Part shown: piece after piece, positions 7,992 through 35,766 of the stretch
Numbering within the stretch: position 1 is the first letter of the stretch
Layout of the letters: each line of letters opens with the position of its first letter
Source: Gemmata sp.
Lineage (GTDB): Bacteria > Planctomycetota > Planctomycetia > Gemmatales > Gemmataceae
NCBI GenBank assembly: GCA_025055115.1
Contig: JANWYJ010000085.1
Span: 1-43,933, forward strand
Reading direction: 5' to 3'
Length of the DNA stretch: 43,933 bases
The notes under the pieces: generated by a model
Database searches by the model: none
The model's input: only the letters and a program-made list of their open reading frames with translations
What the model was told of the DNA's origin: nothing
Position numbers and translations under genes: made by a program

Positions 7992-8087
7992 GTTGTCGAA
8001 CCTCATGCGGCTTTTACAGTGTACGGTGGAAGCGATGATGGCTGTCTGCTGTCAGCTCGGCCACGTTCTCGCATTGTTGGGGCAGCG

Positions 8088-10583
8088 TCACTTCTTCGGC
8101 TCTTCCTTTTTGGGTGTGGGAGTGCCTGCCTGGGCGGCCTTTTCGCGCTCTTCGGCCTCTTTGCGAAGCTGTTCCAGTCGGGTCAGGCGTTTGGGGGGCA
8201 TGTCCGTTTTGGGTGGCGGGGTGGGGGTGGGGGGCGGTGTCGGGGTAGTCGCCACTTTGGGCGGTAACGGCGCATCGATCCGCAGTTGCGTTCCCCCGGT
8301 GTTGCCGATGATGGTTTCACCGTCTTTGACAATCACCACTTGGGCATACACCCCATGCTGCCCGACGGGGCTGGTCTTGTCGGCGGCAATCGGGATCGCG
8401 AATTCCTTCGTGTCTTTGGTGATTTCCACCACCGGTGCCGTGGTCTTGGCCGGTAGGCCAATGAGCGTCACTTTCGCCGGACCTTCAAACGGCGTGTTGA
8501 CCGTCACTTTGCAGAATAACTGCGTTTCTTGCCCCTGTTCGACCGCGGGACGTTCCATCGTCAACGACACAAACGGCACGGCCACTTCGAGGGTGAAAAG
8601 TTGGCTGGCGGTCCACACCGGGCCTCGGCCCGCGTCGGCGACGGCGTGAACCGCCGTTTTCCACTTCCGCGGCGCGGCGTTGGGAGCCGCGTTCATTGGC
8701 AAGACACACTCGGTTTGCCCCTCCGGAATCACGGCCGAGCCTTGAATCCCCAGTCCTGGGGGGGTCCAGAGTGGGAAAACCGTGATGGCCCCTTTGAAAC
8801 CTTCCGCACGCTTGGCCACCACCCGCAGGTTGTACGAACCGTTTTGCACCAACGGCACTTTCGGTTCGATCACTTCAATCGAATACGGGGCTGCTTCCCC
8901 GACAGCGACCGCGGTACGGTCAAAAAAGTGCCGCATGAAGGGGGTATTGTTGATGCCAACGCTGAAGACCGCGTCGAAGGTGGTTTGGCTGGGCACCGGG
9001 GCCTTCGGATCGGTGTGGGTGGCCGTGATGGCGGTCAGCCCACCGCCGAGGGGGGCATCCGGCTTGGCTTCCAGAACCACCGGCAGAATGTTCAACCCCG
9101 CTTCGAGAGTTTCAGCGCTGACGGTCACTCCGGGTGGCAGTTGCTCAAAGCCGATAGTCAATGGACCGCCGAAGTCGACCCGGTTGGCGATCACCACGGT
9201 GGCGTAACGACCGCCGCGGGGAACAGTGATCGTTTGCCGCTCTTGATTCAAAGGGTTATTGCCATCGACCCGGGGAATCGTTGTGGTCACCAACGGCTGG
9301 ATCGGGGTGATTTCGACTCGGTAGAAGTAATCAGGGCCGCCTTTGTTGAGGTGGTCGCGAACCCACAGGGTGTACTCGCCATCTGCGGGCACGGTGAAGC
9401 GCAGATAGCTATCTGGCCCGCCGCTATCGTCGTTGGCGGCCAGCCCTGCGCCGGTGGCGTTACCCACGGTAAGAACGGGATCAAGCGGCGAGCCGAGTTG
9501 CCGGGCATAGCAGCGGATGTCGAAAACTTGCCCTTTTTGAGCGGTGAACTTGAAGAAATCGCTTTCGCCGGCTTTGGCGATGATGCCATTGAAGGCTCCT
9601 GGGGCCGTGCCGGGTGTCGCGGTGGCGATACTGTTGTTATTCCCCGTTTCGTTGACACTCGGCAGATCGATGACTCGAAACGTAAAGCCAGTGGGTGCAA
9701 TACCTTCGGGCGTCTGGCAATGGAGGCGCCAGTGCGGCTGCGGCTTCTCGGGCAGCTTCACTTTCTGTTGGATGGGTCCGGTGGGATCGCCAAGAAAAGT
9801 CACCTCCAACTCAGCGCCCGGTTTTCCACCAGCAGGGAAGACCGCAGTCGGTCGGGGAAATGTTCCCACATGCAGACGGTATTGGCACGACGGATTCCCG
9901 CCGTAGGCGCTTTCGCGGACTTGGATGATGTACTTGCCATCCGCCGGAACCACAATCGAGCAGCCCCCATCTTGCCCGGTGAGGGGGGAATCGTCGCCCG
10001 TGGCCAATTCAAACCGCCGGGCATCCAAAATCGCCACATACGGATCGAAGAAAGTATTGCCAATTCGCATCCCCTCCACTTCCACCGACAACCGCTGCCC
10101 CTTTTTGCACTCGACCACAAAATAATCCTGATCCTCGTTGTCGATGACCCCATGAACGGTCACATTCAAGGGAATCGGCTGCGGTTTGTCGAATTCGCTA
10201 TTCGGTTCGGTCTCGGCAATCACCGGCAACGCCCCGACCCAGAAGGTCCGCAGTTCGGAAATGCCAGTGGCGGTGCGGACGCGAAAGGCGTGTTCACCCA
10301 GCCGGCAATCGGGGGCAATAGCCACCGTGACTTTCAGGGTGGTATCCGTGACAACTTCCAGCTTCTTGACGCGGATTCCCGGATAGTACACGAGCACTTC
10401 CTGAGCGTCCGCCAACCGGGCACCTGAGAAAATCAGTTCCACGTCCGTGCCCCGTTGCGCTCCCCGCGGCTGAATGATGCCCAGCGCTGGCGAGGCCGCC
10501 TCCAGTGACGATACTCCCCCCAGACACACAGCCAGTCCGCACAACCACGGCACGAAACGTTGGGTTCGTTGTTGCTGGTTCAT
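8088..10583 (-). CDS. Exported protein with two PPC (pre-peptidase C-terminal) domains
   Basis: An 831-residue secreted protein: signal peptide (1-29), an IPT/TIG-like beta domain (about 32-118), a first PPC domain (about 128-235) and a second (about 315-425) with the typical SDFFKFTAQKGQ and VPADGEYTLWV motifs, then further beta-sandwich regions and a Pro/Thr/Lys-rich C-terminal tail. PPC domains usually accompany secreted enzymes, but here no catalytic domain is visible, so a structural or ligand-binding role in the envelope is the simplest reading. Start ATG 10583 has GAGAAAG seven bases upstream. Second gene in the DUF1501-led block. The long proline run (PTPPPTPTPPPK) probably spans or contacts the wall. 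Confidence 0.85.
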   Translation of the reverse strand: MNQQQRTQRFVPWLCGLAVCLGGVSSLEAASPALGIIQPRGAQRGTDVELIFSGARLADAQEVLVYYPGIRVKKLEVVTDTTLKVTVAIAPDCRLGEHAFRVRTATGISELRTFWVGALPVIAETEPNSEFDKPQPIPLNVTVHGVIDNEDQDYFVVECKKGQRLSVEVEGMRIGNTFFDPYVAILDARRFELATGDDSPLTGQDGGCSIVVPADGKYIIQVRESAYGGNPSCQYRLHVGTFPRPTAVFPAGGKPGAELEVTFLGDPTGPIQQKVKLPEKPQPHWRLHCQTPEGIAPTGFTFRVIDLPSVNETGNNNSIATATPGTAPGAFNGIIAKAGESDFFKFTAQKGQVFDIRCYARQLGSPLDPVLTVGNATGAGLAANDDSGGPDSYLRFTVPADGEYTLWVRDHLNKGGPDYFYRVEITPIQPLVTTTIPRVDGNNPLNQERQTITVPRGGRYATVVIANRVDFGGPLTIGFEQLPPGVTVSAETLEAGLNILPVVLEAKPDAPLGGGLTAITATHTDPKAPVPSQTTFDAVFSVGINNTPFMRHFFDRTAVAVGEAAPYSIEVIEPKVPLVQNGSYNLRVVAKRAEGFKGAITVFPLWTPPGLGIQGSAVIPEGQTECVLPMNAAPNAAPRKWKTAVHAVADAGRGPVWTASQLFTLEVAVPFVSLTMERPAVEQGQETQLFCKVTVNTPFEGPAKVTLIGLPAKTTAPVVEITKDTKEFAIPIAADKTSPVGQHGVYAQVVIVKDGETIIGNTGGTQLRIDAPLPPKVATTPTPPPTPTPPPKTDMPPKRLTRLEQLRKEAEEREKAAQAGTPTPKKEEPKK

Positions 10584-24101: not shown

Positions 24102-24851
24102 ATGAACATCGACCTGTCCGGGAAAGCCGCGTTGGTGTGTGGTGGCTCACAAGGGATTGGTCTGGCCGCCGCCAAGGAATTGGCCGCGGCCGGTGCCTGT
24201 GTCACGGTGCTGGCCCGTACGGCTCCGCCGCAGGAATGCGGTTTCGGTTTTCTCCAGGCCGATGCCCAGCAAGTGGAAACGCTCATAGCCTCGTTAGAAG
24301 GGCAACTCGGTGGGCCGGCGCGGTTTCATATCGTGGTCAACAACAGCGGCGGCCCACCTCCCGGACCGATCACCGAAGCGACCATCGAGCAACTGCTGGC
24401 AGCCTTTCGGCAACATGTGCTGGCCTCGCATTTGATTACGCAATGGGTATTGCCGGGCATGCGAGCCGCCGGGTATGGCCGCATTATCAATGTCATCTCG
24501 ACCTCGGTGCGCGAGCCGATCCCCGGCTTGGGGGTGTCGAATACGATTCGTGGAGCGATGGCGGCGTGGGCCAAAACGCTCTCGCGCGAGGTGGGGCGCT
24601 GGGGGATCACGGTCAACAATGTGCTACCGGGGGCCACACAGACGGCCCGCCTGGAAGCGATTATTGCCCGGAAGGCGGCAACGACGTCGCGGGAGGAGGT
24701 GGAACGGGCGATGAAGGCCGAAATTCCCCTCGGGCGCTTTGGGACTCCCGAGGAGGTGGGCGGTGTCATTGCCTTTCTGGCTTCGCCGGCAGCCAGTTAC
24801 ATCAGTGGGGTGAGTGTGCCGGTTGATGGCGGGAGGTTGCAGAGTGTCTGA
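24102..24851 (+). CDS. SDR family protein with atypical active site
   Basis: A 249-residue Rossmann-fold oxidoreductase of the FabG-like superfamily. The NAD(P)-binding GGSQGIG loop (residues 14-20) and the VVNNSGG motif (about 85) are intact, and the C-terminal IAFLASPAASYISG matches. The catalytic YxxxK motif is missing: where it should be, the sequence reads GVSNTIRGAMAAWAK, as in the subgroup of SDRs that lack the usual tyrosine. So it may use other residues or act in binding rather than oxidation. It heads a tight cluster with the aldehyde dehydrogenase, RidA deaminase and 3-hydroxyanthranilate dioxygenase, and its stop overlaps the start of the dehydrogenase by 8 bp. Its step in that pathway is not evident. 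Confidence 0.83.
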   Translation: MNIDLSGKAALVCGGSQGIGLAAAKELAAAGACVTVLARTAPPQECGFGFLQADAQQVETLIASLEGQLGGPARFHIVVNNSGGPPPGPITEATIEQLLAAFRQHVLASHLITQWVLPGMRAAGYGRIINVISTSVREPIPGLGVSNTIRGAMAAWAKTLSREVGRWGITVNNVLPGATQTARLEAIIARKAATTSREEVERAMKAEIPLGRFGTPEEVGGVIAFLASPAASYISGVSVPVDGGRLQSV

Positions 24852-26298
24852 GCGGGAGCGATTCCTCAACTTCATCGGTGGTCGGTTCATTCCGCCGCAG
24901 GGGGGCGACTATTTACCCGTCTACGAACCGGCGACCGGGCAGGTGTACGCCGAAGTGGCCGCTTCCAGCCGCGACGATGTTCTGGCGGCCTGTGCGGCGG
25001 CCGAAGCGGCTTTCCCCGCGTGGCGCGATTGCCCGATCGAACAACGGGCCGCGCTACTCCAGACCATCGCCGACAAGATCGAAACCCACCTCGAAGACCT
25101 GGCCTATGCCGAATCGCAGGATACCGGCAAACCGGTCACGTTGGCACGCCGTGTCGATATTCCGCGGGCCGTGGCCAATTTTCGCTTCTTTGCCGCAGGG
25201 GTACAACACTTCGCCAGTGAGTGCCACCCCACGTCCGCCGATGTGCTCAACTATACGTTGCGGTCGCCACTGGGGGTTGTCGGTTGTATTTCGCCGTGGA
25301 ATCTACCGCTGTATTTGTTCACCTGGAAGATCGCTCCGGCACTGGCCGCGGGCAATTGCGTGATCGGCAAACCCAGCGAACTGACACCGGCCACCGCGAC
25401 GCGGCTGGCGCAACTGTGCTGGGAAGCCGGCCTGCCCCCCGGAGTGCTGAACATAGTCCACGGAACCGGAACGGACGCTGGCGAACCGATTTGTACCCAT
25501 CCAGCGGTGCGGGCCGTCTCGTTCACGGGGGGCACGAAAACCGGTGCCCGCATTGCCAGTGTCACCGCGCCGCTATTCAAAAAACTCTCCCTGGAGCTGG
25601 GGGGAAAGAACCCGGTTTTGATTTTGGACGATTGTGATCTGGAGATGGCCCTGGCCACCACTGTCCGTTCCGCTTTCGCCAACCAGGGTGAAATCTGTTT
25701 GTGCGGTTCGCGCGTGTTTGTTCATGATCGCATTTACGATCGCTTCAAGGCCGAATTCGTCGCCCGCGTGCAGAAGCTGGTCGTTGGCGACCCCCGCGAT
25801 GCTCGCACCGATCAAGGAGCGCTGATCTCCGAGTCGCACTGGGCGAAGGTGCAAAGCTATCTGGCTTTGGCTCGTGCGGAGGGGGGGACCATTCTGTGTG
25901 GCGGTGAGGTGGTGTCGCCGCCGGGGCGGTGCGCCGGTGGCTGGTTTCTGACGCCGGCGGTGATCGAAGGGCTGCCGGACCATTGCCGGACCAGCCAAGA
26001 GGAGATTTTCGGCCCCGTGGTGGCGCTGTATCGCTTCCACCACGATGATGAAGCGGTCCAACGGGCCAACGCCACGCCCTATGGCCTGGCGGCGGTGCTG
26101 TGGACCCGCTCGCTCGACCGCGCCCACCGCATCGCGGCTCAGTTGCAGGCCGGGATTGTCTGGGTCAACTGTTGGATGGTCCGCGACTTGCGCACGCCCT
26201 TCGGTGGGGTCAAGCAATCCGGTGTTGGTCGCGAAGGCGGATGGGAGGCGTTGCGGTTCTTCACCGAACCGAAGAATGTGTGTCTCCAGTTCTCCTGA
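24844..26298 (+). CDS. Aldehyde dehydrogenase, 2-aminomuconic/2-hydroxymuconic semialdehyde type
   Basis: A 484-residue NAD-dependent aldehyde dehydrogenase. The SPWNLPL motif at about 150-157, the general base E251 in LELGGKN and the nucleophile C285 in FANQGEICLCG are all present. Placed between the SDR and a RidA-type deaminase, with 3-hydroxyanthranilate dioxygenase just downstream, it best fits oxidation of 2-aminomuconate 6-semialdehyde to 2-aminomuconate; 2-hydroxymuconic semialdehyde is the main alternative. The start is GTG 24844, seven bases after GGGAGG and overlapping the SDR stop by 8 bp, which points to translational coupling. It ends 36 bp before the RidA gene. Confidence 0.87.
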   Translation: MSERERFLNFIGGRFIPPQGGDYLPVYEPATGQVYAEVAASSRDDVLAACAAAEAAFPAWRDCPIEQRAALLQTIADKIETHLEDLAYAESQDTGKPVTLARRVDIPRAVANFRFFAAGVQHFASECHPTSADVLNYTLRSPLGVVGCISPWNLPLYLFTWKIAPALAAGNCVIGKPSELTPATATRLAQLCWEAGLPPGVLNIVHGTGTDAGEPICTHPAVRAVSFTGGTKTGARIASVTAPLFKKLSLELGGKNPVLILDDCDLEMALATTVRSAFANQGEICLCGSRVFVHDRIYDRFKAEFVARVQKLVVGDPRDARTDQGALISESHWAKVQSYLALARAEGGTILCGGEVVSPPGRCAGGWFLTPAVIEGLPDHCRTSQEEIFGPVVALYRFHHDDEAVQRANATPYGLAAVLWTRSLDRAHRIAAQLQAGIVWVNCWMVRDLRTPFGGVKQSGVGREGGWEALRFFTEPKNVCLQFS

Positions 26299-26334
26299 GA
26301 ATTGAGGTCATTGGGCCTTCTCCGAGAGGATGCG

Positions 26335-26760
26335 ATGAGTGTGGTGAAGCGGAAGATTGTGTCCGAGCGGGCGGCGGAACCGGTTGGCGCGTATCCGCAT
26401 GCGTGGCAGGTTGGTTCGTTGTTGTTTCTGTCGGGTATTGGCCCCCGCGAACGCGGCCGCCCTACGATTCCGGGTGTTCAGCTCGATGCGGCCGGGCAAG
26501 TGGTCGCTTACGATATTGTCGAAGAAGCGAAAGCGGTGTTTCGCAATATCCGGTTCATCCTGGAAGATGCTGGTAGCCGCTGGGAGAACATCATCGATGT
26601 GACGGTCTTTCTCACGTCCATCGCCCGCGACTTCCACGCCTTCAACGCGGTGTATCGCGAATACTTCGCAGCGATCGAACCATGCCGCACGACGGTGGAG
26701 GTGAACCGGTTGCCCACGCCGATTCATGTCGAATTGAAGGTGATTGCGACTTTGGAATGA
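26335..26760 (+). CDS. RidA/YjgF-family deaminase, likely 2-aminomuconate deaminase
   Basis: A 141-residue RidA-type protein. The family hydrolyses enamine/imine intermediates; the subgroup beside aminomuconate semialdehyde dehydrogenase acts on 2-aminomuconate in 3-hydroxyanthranilate and 2-aminophenol degradation (AmnD/NbaF). Motifs seen: QVGSLLFLSGIGPR at the N-terminal strand and the signature TTVEVNRLPTPIHVELKVIA with the conserved Arg. It forms trimers in the family. Start ATG 26335 has AGAGG about six bases upstream. The neighbouring dehydrogenase and dioxygenase are the main basis for the narrower substrate call; the fold itself is certain. Confidence 0.82.
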   Translation: MSVVKRKIVSERAAEPVGAYPHAWQVGSLLFLSGIGPRERGRPTIPGVQLDAAGQVVAYDIVEEAKAVFRNIRFILEDAGSRWENIIDVTVFLTSIARDFHAFNAVYREYFAAIEPCRTTVEVNRLPTPIHVELKVIATLE

Positions 26761-26821
26761 CAGCGACCGTGGTCTTGTTCACCCAACGTTTTCTCCAACG
26801 GTTGTGACGAGGAACTCTCCC

Positions 26822-27400
26822 ATGCTGCGTGCACCGATCAACTTCCAACAATGGATCAACGATCACCGCGCACTGCTCCAGCCCCCCGTTGGCAACAAGC
26901 TCGTCTTTGAGGATGCTGACTTCATCGTGATGGTAGTCGGCTCCAATACGCGGCGCGATTATCACGTGAACGAGGGGGAGGAATTCTTCTATCAAGTCGA
27001 AGGCGACATGGTACTGAAGGTTCACGACAACGGTCAAATTGTCGATATTCCGATCAGGCAGGGGGAGATTTTCCTTCTGCCGCCGCGGGTGCCCCATTCC
27101 CCGCGCCGGCCGGCCCACACCGTGGGTTTGGTGATCGAGAAAAAACGTGAGCCGGGCCAACGCGACGGGTTCCAGTGGTATTGCGAGAACTGCGGCCACA
27201 AGCTGCATGAGGAATTTCTTCACGTCACGAACATCGTCACGCAGTTGCCGCCGCTGTTTGAGCGGTTTTATGGCGATGAAGCGAAGCGGCTGTGCCCGCG
27301 GTGCGGGACGCGCTTTCCTGATCCTGGCCCAGTTCCTTCAGCGGTCCAACCCCAGCCTGGCGGATCGGTTGCCCCTACGACACTTTCTTCAAGAACGTGA
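26822..27400 (+). CDS. nbaC: 3-hydroxyanthranilate 3,4-dioxygenase
   Basis: A 192-residue extradiol dioxygenase of the cupin fold that opens 3-hydroxyanthranilate to 2-amino-3-carboxymuconate semialdehyde with Fe(II) and O2. Metal ligands by position are H48 (RRDYHVNEGEE), E54 and H92 (VPHSPRRP). The C-terminal rubredoxin-like site of the bacterial type is complete: C121-C124 (CENC) and C158-C161 (CPRC). A Pro/Ser/Gly-rich tail of about 25 residues follows. Start ATG 26822 has GAGGA nine bases upstream. The last gene in the aminomuconate cluster; the decarboxylase (ACMSD) that should follow it in the pathway is not in this window. Its end overlaps that of the convergent NHL gene by 26 bp. Confidence 0.93.
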   Translation: MLRAPINFQQWINDHRALLQPPVGNKLVFEDADFIVMVVGSNTRRDYHVNEGEEFFYQVEGDMVLKVHDNGQIVDIPIRQGEIFLLPPRVPHSPRRPAHTVGLVIEKKREPGQRDGFQWYCENCGHKLHEEFLHVTNIVTQLPPLFERFYGDEAKRLCPRCGTRFPDPGPVPSAVQPQPGGSVAPTTLSSRT

Positions 27401-30144: not shown

Positions 30145-32358
30145 TCACCGTCTTCTGGTCTGGAAGATTTCATCGAACTTGCGGGCCACCGACAGGAACG
30201 CCTTCAGCAGGATGGGATCGTACTCGTTTTGCAATTCGGTGCTGAGCAAACGGACCACCTGGTTGTGACTCAAGGCGGGGCGATGGGGTCGTTTGGTGCG
30301 CAGCGATTCGTAGACGGCCGTGAGAGCCACGACCCGTGCCGCCAGCGGAATCGCATTCCCACGTAACCCCTCGGGATAGCCGGTGCCATCCCACTTTTCG
30401 TGATGGCTGCGAATCACTTCCTGGGCCAACCCCAGCTCGGGCATCGCGGCGTTGTAGCGCTGGCCGATGTCGGCAACAACCGTGGTGCCCAGCACGGTAT
30501 GTTGCTGCACAATCGCTTGTTCTTCGGCATCGAGGGCTGCGGGCTTTTGCAAGATGGAACTGGGCAATAGCAGCATGCCGGCATCGTGCAGCGGCGCGAT
30601 GCGAACGAGTAAGTCCAGAAAAGCGGTATCGTGCAGGCGGGTGTACTCGCCCTCAGGTGGCACGGCTTCGGCGAGAGTGCGGACATAGCGCCCACAGAGT
30701 TCGTGATAGCCCCGGAGAATCACGCCCAGTTCTTCGAGCATCCGGCAGATGGCAAAGGCCAACGGTTCGGTGGGCGAAAGCCGGGCCAGTTCGCTGTCGC
30801 GCGCTGGAGCTGGCGTCGGATGGACGGTGGCGCTGTGGGTTCCCGATTGGGTGGAACTATTGCCCCGTCGGCCCAGCAACCCCCGGGCCCGAGCGACGAA
30901 TGCTGGCGGCAGAAAAGGTTTCTCGAGATAATCATCAGCCCCGGTCATCAGATAGCTGCCGAGCGATTCGGACGGCAGATCGCCAGATACCATGAGGGTG
31001 CGGGTCCGCGCGCTCATTTTTTCGTCGGCCCGCACACGGGCGAGAATTTCGGCCCCGCTCAGTTCGGGAATGTTGACATCCAGCACCAACAAATCGAAGG
31101 GGGCTTTCTCCAACTCGGCCCAGGCGGTTTTCCCGTCGCCGGCTTCAACGCAGATGCAATCACGCAGCAGACTGGCCATCAACCGCCGTAAGCGCGGATC
31201 ATCTTCCACGATCAGTACCCGTGGGGCGGAACCGGCATCCGCGGCTTGCCGCAACGAGACCCAACGGCCAAAACCGGCTAAAGTCGCGGCCACCGCGCGG
31301 GCCGATTGATAACGACGCTCGGGATCAGGGTCGGTCAGCTTGGCAATCATACTGACCAGCTCATCCGGCATTTCTGGGTTGGTTCGCCGCAAGTCCAAGG
31401 CTGGAGCTTGGAGCCGGCTGGTCAGATCATGAAACAGATGGCCGGTTTCCGGGAATGGCTCTTTGCCCGTCAACGCCCAATACATGGTGGCCCCAAGGCT
31501 GAAAAGATCGGCGCGGGCATCGACCAGGTGAGCATCTTGGGCCTGTTCGGGGGCCATGTAGCCCACGGTGCCCAGCACCAGCCCCGGTTCAGTCATCCGG
31601 TGGCTGGGACGGAGGGCCAACCCGAAATCGAGCAGTTTGGCCTGCCCATCAGGAGTGATGAGAATGTTACTGGGTTTGATGTCGCGGTGAACCAGCCCGA
31701 AGCGATGAGCTTCCGCCAGCGCCTCGGCCACCTGACGGAACAATTCGCAGACTCGATGTGGCGGCAACGGCCCCTGATTGACGACCCGGGTGTGAAGATC
31801 GGCTCCCGGGATCAGTTCCATGACATAATAGTCGCGCGGGGGGCCACCGCGGGGGCTGTACCGCCCAGCATCCAGACAACTGACAATATTGGGATGCTGC
31901 AGCTTCGCCACGGCCCGGGCTTCACCATAAAAACGGTGCAGCAAGCGCGGATTCGCCTCCGCCGACCGAGTCATGACCTTGACCGCCACCTGCCGCCGCA
32001 AATGCACATGTTCGGCCCGGTAGACAGTGCCCATCCCACCGCGGCCCAAAACGTCCAGCAGCCGGTAATGGCCCAAGACCAGTTCGTTCTCACCTCCCTG
32101 ACGGACCGTATCCGCTTGAAATGGCGTCAGAAGGTGGTTTTCGACCAACCGATCAAGAATATCCTCATGCCGCGATGGTTGCAGAATCTGCTGACGCACT
32201 TCCACCGGCAATTCATCCCATTCTTCGGGCAAAACGATCCATTTTTCGATCAGCCGCGTTAAACAGCCTTTCGGTTCGCTCCATTCCGCCGGCGGAATGC
32301 GTTCCCGGGGGGGAATGGGATCGTAATCCGCAGCGCATTGCGAGATGATCGACGACAT
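30145..32358 (-). CDS. Ser/Thr protein kinase - REC - HD-GYP fusion
   Basis: A 737-residue three-domain signalling protein. Kinase domain about 98-365: glycine loop GRGGMG at 105-110, K127, catalytic HRD at 224-226, DFG at 244-246 and APE at 269-271. Receiver domain about 380-495: acidic pocket D386-D387, phospho-acceptor D427, K480. HD-GYP-like domain about 530-735: HD at 591-592, HHEKWDGTGYP at 652-662. The lysine usually following HDxG (HDIGK) is a methionine here (HDAGM), so phosphodiesterase activity on cyclic di-GMP is uncertain. No membrane segment; cytosolic. Start ATG 32358 has GGAG six bases upstream. It is divergent from a hybrid histidine kinase (32588), a good candidate for the phosphate source of the REC domain. 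Confidence 0.9.
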   Translation of the reverse strand: MSSIISQCAADYDPIPPRERIPPAEWSEPKGCLTRLIEKWIVLPEEWDELPVEVRQQILQPSRHEDILDRLVENHLLTPFQADTVRQGGENELVLGHYRLLDVLGRGGMGTVYRAEHVHLRRQVAVKVMTRSAEANPRLLHRFYGEARAVAKLQHPNIVSCLDAGRYSPRGGPPRDYYVMELIPGADLHTRVVNQGPLPPHRVCELFRQVAEALAEAHRFGLVHRDIKPSNILITPDGQAKLLDFGLALRPSHRMTEPGLVLGTVGYMAPEQAQDAHLVDARADLFSLGATMYWALTGKEPFPETGHLFHDLTSRLQAPALDLRRTNPEMPDELVSMIAKLTDPDPERRYQSARAVAATLAGFGRWVSLRQAADAGSAPRVLIVEDDPRLRRLMASLLRDCICVEAGDGKTAWAELEKAPFDLLVLDVNIPELSGAEILARVRADEKMSARTRTLMVSGDLPSESLGSYLMTGADDYLEKPFLPPAFVARARGLLGRRGNSSTQSGTHSATVHPTPAPARDSELARLSPTEPLAFAICRMLEELGVILRGYHELCGRYVRTLAEAVPPEGEYTRLHDTAFLDLLVRIAPLHDAGMLLLPSSILQKPAALDAEEQAIVQQHTVLGTTVVADIGQRYNAAMPELGLAQEVIRSHHEKWDGTGYPEGLRGNAIPLAARVVALTAVYESLRTKRPHRPALSHNQVVRLLSTELQNEYDPILLKAFLSVARKFDEIFQTRRR

Positions 32359-32587: not shown

Positions 32588-34573
32588 ATGAGTGCTGCCA
32601 TGGCCGACGGTTGGGAGCAGCGATGGCTTGCAGACAAAACCGGTTCGATTTTCCGCAGCGATCCGGTCGCCACCGCCAATCTGCCAGAACTCGTCTTCAA
32701 CGCCCACCCAGCTCCGATGTGGGTATTCGACACCCGCTCGCTGCGGTTTCTGGCCGTCAACGACGCTGTCGTGATTCGCTATGGCTATTCCCGGGATGAG
32801 CTGCTGAATCTGACGCTGCGCGAAGTGGTGGCGGCGGAAACCACCGAGTGGCTACTGCGGGAATTGGCCTCCGAAACCCTGCTGCCGGGAACTGTGCTAA
32901 CCTGGCCGCACCGGACCAAAGCCGGTGTTCTGCTGCCCCTCGAAGCGATTGCTACCCCGTTGGCCGACCCCAATCGCCAGGCCTGGCTTGTCGTTGGGAC
33001 TGATATTACCGAGCGACGCCGAACCGAAGCGGCCCTTCGCCAAAGCGAAGAACACCTGCGCAACATCTTGGCCCACATCCCCTGTGGAGTGTTTTGGAAA
33101 GATCGGGCACTGATTTATCTGGGTTGCAACGACCAGTTTGCCCGCGACTGCGGTCTGAGCGTCGCCGGCGAGGTCGTAGGGCGAACGGATGACGACCTGA
33201 CCACCTGCACCGACGAAGTCGAACTCAGCCAAAGCCGCGATCTGCAAGTGATCCACAACGGCACCCCGTTACTCAATGTCGAAGAAACCCGGACGCGCCC
33301 CGACGGCATGAAAGCCACGTTGCTCATCAGCCGCGTCCCCATGCTCGATACCCACCAGCGAGTCATCGGCATTCTGGGGGTCTACCAAGATGTGACCGAA
33401 CTCAAACGGCTCGAAATTCAGTTCCGCCAAGCGCAGAAGATGGAAGCTATTGGCCGACTCGCCGGCGGGGTGGCCCACGATTTTAATAATTTGCTCACCA
33501 TCATCTCCGGCAATATCCATCTGATGCAAAGTGTACCGTCTGACGATCCGGAGTTTCCCCGCCTGTTGGAGGATGTTCGCGACGCCGCCGAACGCGCCGC
33601 CACCCTGACCCGACAGCTCCTCACCTTCAGCCGCAAACAACCCACCCGGCCCGAAGTCTGCGACCTCAACGCGATTATCACGGAGTTTCTCAGCATGCTC
33701 CGCCGCTTGATTGGTGACCGCGCCCGGATTTGCACCGAACTCCATGAACAACCCATTCCCGTCAAAGTCGACCGCAGCCAGATTGAACAAGTCCTGTTGA
33801 ATTTGGCCGTCAACGCCAAGGATGCCATGCCCCAGGGGGGAACGATCACGATTGCTACAACCGCTGAACTTGGCGGCGAGCGCTGGGCGGTACTGCGGGT
33901 CGCCGACACCGGCTGCGGTATGACCGAGGAGGTGAAAAAACACCTCTTCGAGCCGTTTTTCACCACCAAAGACGTGGGCAAGGGCACCGGGCTGGGGTTG
34001 GCCACCGTCTACGGCATCGTGCAAAAAGCCCGCGGTACGATTGATGTCGATTCGACCGTCGGTGTCGGAACAACCTTCACTATCCGCCTGCCGTGGTGCG
34101 ATGATCCCCCCAAGACTTCGACCACCTTGCCCAGCAGTTCTGTCGCGACGCGTCCCAATGCTGCCGTGCGGTCGATACTTCTGGTCGAGGATGAGGAACG
34201 GTTACGGAAAATGGCCCGCTTCACCCTCGAAGGGCAAGGTTTTTGCGTCTTTGAAGCCGATTGTGCCCATACCGCGCTACAGTTGCTCACCCCCGAGCGG
34301 TCGTGCGATTTGCTGATCACCGATATGGTGATGCCCGGTATGGACGGTCGGGCGCTGGCGGCGCAAGTGCGGACGCAGCGACCGGAAATCGGAGTGGTTT
34401 TTATCTCGGGTTTTGTGCCCGATCAGGAGCGGCTGGAGGGAGTGCCCGGAGCGTTATTCCTACCGAAACCCTTTACGCCCTTGGATTTAGTGAAAACGGT
34501 CGAACGGGCCTTGCGGCGTTGGCCGCCGGCGTCGCACACTGCTAGCCAACGGCGCTTTCCCGGTTCGTCCTAG
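32588..34573 (+). CDS. PAS-PAS hybrid histidine kinase with C-terminal REC
   Basis: A 661-residue cytosolic sensor kinase. Two PAS domains (about 33-145, ending in the [14 protein letters not shown] linker, and about 150-275), then HisKA with phospho-acceptor H297 in [11 protein letters not shown], HATPase with N409 ([12 protein letters not shown]), DTGCGM and GKGTGLGLA boxes, and a C-terminal receiver domain with D579 and K627. No membrane helix, so its signal is likely a soluble ligand or redox state. The start is chosen as ATG 32588; further upstream in-frame codons run through the spacer duplication and into the neighbouring gene's start, and ATG 32600 is an alternative. The REC-HDOD gene follows after 11 bases, so they form an operon. 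Confidence 0.88.
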
Positions 34574-34584
34574 GTATCTGTGCC

Positions 34585-35766
34585 ATGAGCGGTCGGGTTT
34601 TCCTGGTCACCCACGATGCAACGACGCAACGCTTGGTGTGGCAAGCTTTTGCGCCTGTCCAGCACGAATGGGAAATACTCTTCAGTCGCGGTGGACCGGA
34701 AGCATTGCGGCTTCTGGAGGGAGCCGCGTTCGACTCGGTCATCCTGGATGCGCAACTGGCCGGCATTTCTTGCACCGAGCTGCTATTGGAAGTGCGTCGA
34801 CGCCATCCGCGGACAGCACGCCTGGTGTTGGCCCCTGTGGGAAGTCCCGAGGTGGTCCAGTTGGTCGCGCTGGCCCATCGGGTATTACCCAAACCGTGCC
34901 CTGCGGCCGAGCTGGTCAACGCCGTCCAGCGGGCCTACTGTCTGCGGGAATTGCTCGGCAGTTCCTCGTTGGTGTCCGTCATTGGGCGGCTGACCAGTGT
35001 CCCGGCTTTGTCCACCCTCTACACGCAGATCGCCGACACCCTCATGCAGCCCGATTACTCCCTGGCCGCGGTGGGCGAGTTGGTTTCCCAAGACCTGGGT
35101 ATTGCTGCCCGTCTGCTGCAAATGGCCAACTCGGCTCTCGTCGGCCTGCGCAAGCCCGCGGCGACCCCCAGCCAAGCGGTGAAAATCCTTGGCGCGGACC
35201 TGACACGCACTCTCATTCTCGCAGCCGATCTGTTTTCCCGTTACAACCCCCAGATGCTACGGCCCTTCTCGATTGAACTGTTATGGGAACATAGTCAGGC
35301 GGTGGCTGAGCTGGCCGCTGCCATCGCCACCAGCGAACGCGCCGACGAACGGGTAGTCCGTGAATCGGCCCTCGCCGGGCTTCTTCACGATATTGGCCGA
35401 TTAACACTCGCCAGCCAACTGGCCGGCCCCTATCGGGAAGTGATGAACGCCATGCGGATCGACAATCTCCGCGCCGAAGACGCCGAACGGCAAGTTCTGG
35501 GAACGTCGCATGCGGAAGTCGGGGCCTATCTGTTGGGGTTATGGGGCCTGCCCGACGCGATTGTGGAAGCTGTGGCGTGGCACCATCACCCCAGCGGCTG
35601 CCCCAGCACCGGCTTTACCCCACTGACCGCGGTTCACGCCGCCGATACGATTCTACACGCTGCCGACAACGCCCAACCCGACGGCGAATACCTCGCCCGC
35701 TTGGGGCTGTCGTCGCGCTGGAGCGCCTGGCTGGCCTTGCGCGAAGCGCCGAAAGTGTTGACCTGA
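34585..35766 (+). CDS. REC-HDOD signalling protein
   Basis: A 393-residue protein with an N-terminal receiver-like domain (D55 and K103 kept, but only one of the paired acidic residues near position 11) and an HDOD domain from about 125 to 330 with H268-D269 in LLHDIGRL. HDOD proteins are a divergent branch of the HD superfamily with signalling roles, often acting downstream of two-component systems. It follows the hybrid kinase by 11 bases on the same strand, which makes it the likely output partner. The incomplete acidic pocket could mean weak or no phosphorylation. Start ATG 34585; no strong ribosome binding site (translational coupling is plausible). Confidence 0.86.
   Translation: MSGRVFLVTHDATTQRLVWQAFAPVQHEWEILFSRGGPEALRLLEGAAFDSVILDAQLAGISCTELLLEVRRRHPRTARLVLAPVGSPEVVQLVALAHRVLPKPCPAAELVNAVQRAYCLRELLGSSSLVSVIGRLTSVPALSTLYTQIADTLMQPDYSLAAVGELVSQDLGIAARLLQMANSALVGLRKPAATPSQAVKILGADLTRTLILAADLFSRYNPQMLRPFSIELLWEHSQAVAELAAAIATSERADERVVRESALAGLLHDIGRLTLASQLAGPYREVMNAMRIDNLRAEDAERQVLGTSHAEVGAYLLGLWGLPDAIVEAVAWHHHPSGCPSTGFTPLTAVHAADTILHAADNAQPDGEYLARLGLSSRWSAWLALREAPKVLT

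Follow-up and report, generated by a model that had tools for sequence, protein, structure and literature searches.

Gene organization at the locus

The window, i.e. the whole stretch of 43,933 nucleotides of Gemmata sp. that was analysed, carries on its minus strand an open reading frame of 737 aa (30145-32358) in which a Ser/Thr kinase, a receiver and an HD-GYP domain are fused. The features of this gene and of its neighbours are listed below; E185 to K317 follow the residue numbering of the phosphodiesterase PmGH (PMC4159591).

30145 to 32358, minus strand: whole fusion gene, 737 aa, with N-terminal region, Ser/Thr kinase, receiver and degenerate HD-GYP domain (Pfam)
32089 to 32358, minus strand: N-terminal region, residues 1-90, conserved in part across 33 aligned members
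31291 to 32067, minus strand: predicted Hanks-type Ser/Thr kinase domain, residues 98-356, with K127, HRD 224-226, DFG 244-246 and APE 269-271
30889 to 31218, minus strand: receiver domain, residues 381-490, with acidic residues 385-387, phospho-acceptor D427, S458 and K480
30148 to 30768, minus strand: degenerate HD-GYP domain, residues about 531-737 (Pfam HD_5 at 590-715)
30574 to 30588, minus strand: HDAGM motif, residues 591-595; equivalents of H221 and D222 present, that of K225 replaced by M595
30400 to 30405, minus strand: HH pair H652/H653, equivalents of PmGH H276/H277, followed by GYP at 660-662
30316 to 30318, minus strand: A681, at the position of the lost metal ligand D305 (alignment to PmGH)
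32600 (probable start) to 34573, plus strand: divergent hybrid histidine kinase, PAS-PAS-HisKA-HATPase-REC (Pfam, orthologue comparison)
34585 to 35766, plus strand: REC-HDOD protein, encoded after the hybrid kinase and belonging to the conserved neighbourhood (REC score just below the Pfam cut-off)

The three domains were all matched above the curated Pfam cut-offs: PF00069 at residues 98-356 (E 4e-46), PF00072 at 381-490 (E 3e-19) and PF13487, HD_5, at 590-715 (E 3e-21). An earlier sequence-only reading of this DNA had proposed the order kinase, receiver, HD-GYP, which is borne out by Pfam, without giving the strand; its choice of D427 as the receiver aspartate and its spelling of the HD motif as HDAGM were also correct. 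The N-terminal region (residues 1-90) gave no match in a Pfam search at E 0.01, and four of its residues (L71, L76, T78 and Q81) are invariant in an alignment of 33 chosen family members, 22 of the degenerate and 11 of the canonical kind described below. Since Pkinase, Response_reg and HD_5 were matched in all 33, the domain order is no assembly chimera, and a chance open reading frame is likewise ruled out.

The fusion protein is a predicted Hanks-type Ser/Thr kinase with a complete set of the motifs examined: the PF00069 match, the catalytic lysine, HRD and DFG are all present, and the kinase domain aligns best to PknA/PknB. The receiver, similarly, combines the PF00072 match with the acidic pair D386/D387, D427, S458 and K480. 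A structure model built from the 33 family sequences reached a mean pLDDT of 85.3 (only 38.6 for the single-sequence model), and of the 21 blocks of ten residues that begin at residue 531, 17 reached a pLDDT of 90; at a pTM of 0.53, the relative placement of the domains in the model is not trusted. When this model was searched with Foldseek, PknB structures ranked first and the best 50 of at least 2000 matches were kinases only, so that nothing can be drawn from the fold search on the HD-GYP part.

Compared with its nearest orthologue, the divergent hybrid histidine kinase probably starts at 32600 and not at the listed 32345; the listed start overlaps the start of the fusion, and 32600 leaves about 240 bases between the two genes. 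Window-type copies of the fusion were recognized in eight genomes, seven by their place in one clade of the tree described below and that of G006 by identity. In all eight, the hybrid kinase gene lies next to the fusion and points away from it (G017, G016, G011, G014, G018, G013, G006 and the window itself), and the REC-HDOD gene comes next on the same contig in seven, contig ends intervening in G018. Among the 14 window genes whose homologues were sought in the window-type neighbourhoods, only the fusion, the hybrid kinase and the REC-HDOD gene were represented at the fusion loci once the nearest relative was set aside, the compared stretches being 4 to 17 kb long. The pair of hybrid kinase and REC-HDOD is also found without a fusion within 12 kb, in G002, G008, G010 and G012. 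The suggestion, already made from the letters alone, that the neighbouring hybrid kinase is a plausible phosphorelay partner is supported by its adjacency in the eight window-type genomes. For the second degenerate type (C77) no neighbour was common to all seven loci compared, nearer relatives sharing some.

Two further gene groups were observed. Directly downstream of a canonical fusion, L254 encodes at 7996-9093 a DUF1559 protein with an N-terminal methylation motif; homologues occupy the same place in L253 and L255, and L116 ends before that position. In the window itself, a row of genes at 24102-27400 (SDR, aldehyde dehydrogenase, RidA-like and 3-hydroxyanthranilate dioxygenase-like, named by eye) resembles, also by eye, a kynurenine-type degradation cluster.

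The fusion family and its two kinds

Three kinase-REC-HD-GYP fusions are present in the genome to which the window belongs, an assembly of 100 contigs at 98% completeness. Over the REC-HD-GYP part, the window protein is 47% identical to the C77 copy (L115, 5918-8122, a 735-aa frame) and 38% identical to the C8 copy (L116, 7329-9620, 764 aa). The former is a second degenerate fusion, in which YDIGL replaces HDIGK (H221 lost, D222 kept); the latter is a canonical sister with HDIGK and ADVYDAL motifs, probably an active phosphodiesterase, and a natural control for the window protein. At E 1e-20 or better, this genome has 47 kinase-domain matches, counting that of the window. Of these, the kinases of the two other fusions are the nearest to that of the window (67% and 53%; the next reaches 46%), which fits a single fusion event followed by duplication. 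The same genome also encodes a partly altered HD-GYP protein (L006, 661-2160), with MDCGM at the HD motif and DVY kept, and no fused kinase or receiver by Pfam.

Matches at E 1e-40 or better were found in 45 of 79 genomes, the own one included. Together with the 33 fused members mentioned above, this answers the concern of the sequence-only reading that the fusion might be absent from related genomes. Of 91 family matches, 88 were analysed and three partial ones (in G009, G007 and G044) were left out; the short one in G009 may be another degenerate copy. L058 and L105 were excluded from the 88 rows, as their letter at the D305 column is missing, and four further loci duplicate rows already included. 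The remaining 86 rows were divided by that column into a canonical kind (D, 57 rows) and a degenerate kind (not D, 29 rows).

Kinase and HD-GYP lie in one frame in 26 of the 29 degenerate rows, the exceptions being L028, which is cut by the contig end, L031, whose kinase contains undetermined bases, and L072, whose kinase lies in another frame. For the canonical rows the figures are 46 fused of 57, one with the kinase in another frame, six without an upstream kinase and four cut short. The upstream kinase is absent from none of 28 readable degenerate rows versus six of 53 canonical ones, a contrast that is suggestive only. Four canonical REC-HD-GYP copies separated from a kinase (L040, L061, L062 and L065) represent an apparent fission of the fusion: no kinase lies within 1.5-1.7 kb upstream in G009, G005 and G013, and in G016 it lies in a different frame. 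The kinase residues, whose lack of conservation would have refuted the earlier reading, are conserved: all 26 degenerate rows with readable kinase letters have the catalytic lysine, HRD and DFG. The receiver aspartate is found in 26 of the 27 rows that have a receiver (E in L037).

A tree was calculated by a quick method from 56 REC-HD-GYP rows, with the 14 ligand and contact columns excluded and no root inferred; the degenerate L028, L072 and L031 (missing letters) were left out, and the canonical kind is represented by 30 hand-picked rows of its 57. All 26 degenerate rows used fall on the same side of a single branch (SH-aLRT 100); this branch is long (1.23), and the program warns of long branches meeting where the canonical row L087 adjoins the degenerate group. 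The degenerate kind is present in 18 of 19 genomes of the same genus and in one other genus (G025).

Beyond these relatives, a canonical REC-HD-GYP query found matches in 33 of 119 genomes drawn from the phylum, the own genome included. Of 40 such matches outside the own genome, 11 were opened, all of them without an in-frame kinase; the other 29 are known by frame length alone, five exceeding 500 aa. Furthermore, among the matches listed, one of 80 named loci has a kinase in frame, the Gemmata record L167. From both results the fusion looks confined to this order within the sampled genomes.

The HD-GYP active site and its possible roles

The conservation of the active-site positions in the two kinds, and their equivalents in the window protein, are given below.

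E185: canonical 44/57 (D in 4 more), degenerate 0/29; window I547
H189: canonical 54/57, degenerate 2/29 (27 lost); window Y551
H221: canonical 54/57, degenerate 13/29 (16 lost); window H591
D222: canonical 57/57, degenerate 29/29; window D592
K225: canonical 50/57, degenerate 0/29; window M595
H250: canonical 57/57, degenerate 29/29; window H620
H276: canonical 57/57, degenerate 29/29; window H652
H277: canonical 57/57, degenerate 29/29; window H653
Y285: degenerate 29/29; window Y661
D305: the defining column, D in all canonical rows, degenerate 0/29 by definition; window A681
R314: degenerate 29/29; window R690
K317: R in 29/29 degenerate rows; window R693

The window domain belongs to the HD-GYP family by its HD_5 match and its HHExxDGxGYP loop, and it lacks the full phosphodiesterase set of E185, H189, H221, D222, H250, H276, H277 and D305 with K225. 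The sequence-only reading had rightly seen an altered site in the change of K to M; the damage is wider, and I547, Y551 and A681 had been missed. The pattern expected of a receptor, catalytic ligands lost and nucleotide-contact positions kept, is found, Y661, R690 and R693 being invariant in the 29 rows. More generally, 35 of the 50 positions conserved in at least 90% of canonical rows stay so in the degenerate ones; the 15 losses include R544, H551, H591, D681 and D684 (canonical letters, window numbering; position 684 is E in the window), and the letters of the HH-E-DG-GYP stretch are retained. A Fisher test on the ligand classes gave p 0.008, with a ligand-to-site assignment that is our own.

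According to the parts of PMC4159591 consulted, D222 of PmGH bridges the G and M metals, E185 does so for M and H, and the H site has H189 among its ligands. The M-H iron pair may catalyse alone, and after EDTA treatment and soaking c-di-GMP stayed unhydrolysed in the subunit with G-site iron alone. From this we infer a G site made up of H250, H276 and H277 together with D222. The degenerate family has lost what PmGH needs for cleavage and has kept what could hold a nucleotide; this combination of lost catalytic ligands with four kept ligands and kept contact positions points to an input domain, i.e. a sensor.

In the proposed mechanism, which we put at just short of even chances, the kinase would be the output, and the receiver and a non-hydrolysing, c-di-GMP-binding HD-GYP domain would be the inputs. 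The activity of the Hanks-type kinase would be set by these two fused parts. D427 would take a phosphoryl group, most likely from the divergent hybrid histidine kinase, directly or via an HPt protein. With ligands of the M/H pair of catalytic metals gone, the HD-GYP domain would no longer hydrolyse c-di-GMP. It keeps the GYP tyrosine, the two guanine-contact positions and D222, H250, H276 and H277, the last four probably forming the G metal site, and would serve as a receptor for c-di-GMP or a related nucleotide. Nucleotide binding and phosphorylation would then alter kinase activity or the dimer state. The comparisons establish the fusion, the residue pattern, the selection, the grouping of the degenerate kind on the tree and the conserved neighbourhood, and from there we infer non-hydrolysis, ligand, direction of control and partner. 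The own genome can make the signal, as its two GGDEF matches both have GGEEF, and two PilZ matches indicate that other c-di-GMP receptors exist in it; a search of this genome for EAL domains gave no match, and at least three of its HD-GYP proteins (L003-L005) have the HDIGK motif.

The losses of E185, K225 and D305 in all 29 rows would also agree with a pure scaffold, in which nucleotide binding has been lost too, the HD-GYP part serves dimerisation or partner binding and the kinase is gated by the receiver only. Such functions are ascribed to HDOD domains, and the REC-HDOD protein encoded next to the hybrid kinase in window-type genomes also belongs to the HD superfamily. A scaffold, however, would have no need of the GYP loop, the two guanine-contact positions and D222, H250, H276 and H277, all of which are kept in every one of the 29 rows, and we consider this explanation unlikely. 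Much less is to be said for decay, in which the HD-GYP part would be drifting without a role. Two extra degenerate copies, L072 (G013, kinase in another frame) and L105 (G016, HD part ending early), do look broken, but 39 of 207 HD-GYP positions are invariant across the 29 degenerate rows, and dN/dS against the nearest orthologue (one pair) is 0.070 in the HD-GYP part, compared with 0.032 in the kinase, 0.019 in the receiver and 0.28 in the linker. By this one orthologue pair, the degenerate HD-GYP part is under purifying selection; a pseudogene was rejected on the same ratio, and decay is given hardly any weight.

The HD-GYP part might still have phosphodiesterase activity, through a changed site with one or two metals or on a different substrate (pGpG, cGAMP). 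Its best PDB sequence match is a cyclic di-GMP phosphodiesterase (4r8z), and the three best of five solved sequence relatives (4r8z, 5z7c and 4mcw) are named phosphodiesterases or phosphohydrolase. RpfG, moreover, is described in the consulted parts of PMC4159591 as a demonstrated enzyme without the E185 and H189 equivalents, so that ligand loss alone is no proof of a dead enzyme; PmGH E185A and D305A, too, keep some activity. Against this, all 29 rows further lack K225 and D305 and 16 lack H221 (it is kept in the window), and the same source portions report PmGH K225A, H189A and H221A to be essentially inactive. A phosphodiesterase of altered output, as suggested by the sequence-only reading, is on this evidence improbable; the conserved output is probably the kinase, with the HD-GYP part rather a sensor.

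Several points weigh on the preferred reading of a nucleotide-binding input. In PmGH, Y285A, R314A and K317A caused no substantial loss of activity (PMC4159591, parts consulted), so that the conservation of these contacts argues less strongly for binding than might be supposed. The M-site metal of PmGH contacts a substrate phosphate (same parts), and in the window-type domain this metal would be weakened or missing, which counts against the preferred reading. The activity of RpfG, the PilZ matches, the hybrid kinase and REC-HDOD pairs without a fusion, the long branches of the quick tree and the differences from DvhD given below count against it as well. The HD-GYP domain has probably been turned from an enzyme into a sensor, i.e. 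a retired phosphodiesterase. The observation of the fusion was correct and is conserved, and its interpretation should most likely be reversed: a kinase with a retired phosphodiesterase as its sensor. That this Ser/Thr kinase is directly gated at once by c-di-GMP and His-Asp phosphotransfer, a former phosphodiesterase having become its regulatory part when already fused to it, with the catalytic pair dropped and the metal site that holds c-di-GMP unhydrolysed retained, is put forward as a tentative possibility, on odds somewhat against it.

Significance and comparison with known systems

To our knowledge, the inputs of Gemmataceae Ser/Thr kinases are mostly unknown, and the fusion family would offer one such kinase whose two inputs can be named and for which a canonical sister, encoded by the same genome, provides a built-in control. 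If the proposal is true, three signalling systems (Ser/Thr kinase, phosphorelay and c-di-GMP) are joined in one chain, and c-di-GMP acts on a Hanks-type kinase via a fused former phosphodiesterase, a link absent from the literature searched. Among the papers listed by full-text searches, supplementary tables being outside their scope, no title or abstract describes the kinase-REC-HD-GYP architecture. The consulted text of PMC11032199 counts 98-140 Ser/Thr kinases per Gemmataceae proteome and a total of 307 architectures and does not name this one, which its supplement may list.

Several known systems share parts of the arrangement. PA4781-type response regulators consist of REC followed by HD-GYP, as in the window protein, but have no kinase in front and are phosphodiesterases. 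PknA/PknB-like Hanks kinases resemble it in a kinase domain with all catalytic motifs examined; by Pfam, the window protein has no PASTA domain and carries the receiver and HD-GYP instead. PmGH and other HD-GYP phosphodiesterases share the homologous domain with its GYP loop, and the canonical rows mostly keep their ligands, whereas window-type rows are without the equivalents of E185, K225 and D305, the window also without that of H189.

Control of a kinase by c-di-GMP through a fused domain is known from Myxococcus xanthus (SgmT, PMC3509222) and Caulobacter (ShkA, PMC7010744); these two proteins are histidine kinases with GGDEF and pseudo-receiver ligand domains, in contrast to the predicted Hanks-type kinase and HD-GYP domain described here. 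Finally, in the consulted part of PMC13090378, the degenerate HD-GYP of DvhD from Desulfovibrio vulgaris is a proven non-hydrolysing c-di-GMP receptor. The likeness lies in an HD-GYP domain without the catalytic ligand set acting as receptor and not as enzyme, which is shown there and proposed here. DvhD, however, is a dCache-PAS-HD-GYP protein with a periplasmic sensor and a periplasmic output, and Pfam finds in the window protein a Ser/Thr kinase and a receiver in place of dCache and PAS. Moreover, DvhD has SQ for HD, no HH pair and metal-free binding according to the same part of that source, whereas the window type keeps D222, H250 and the HH pair.
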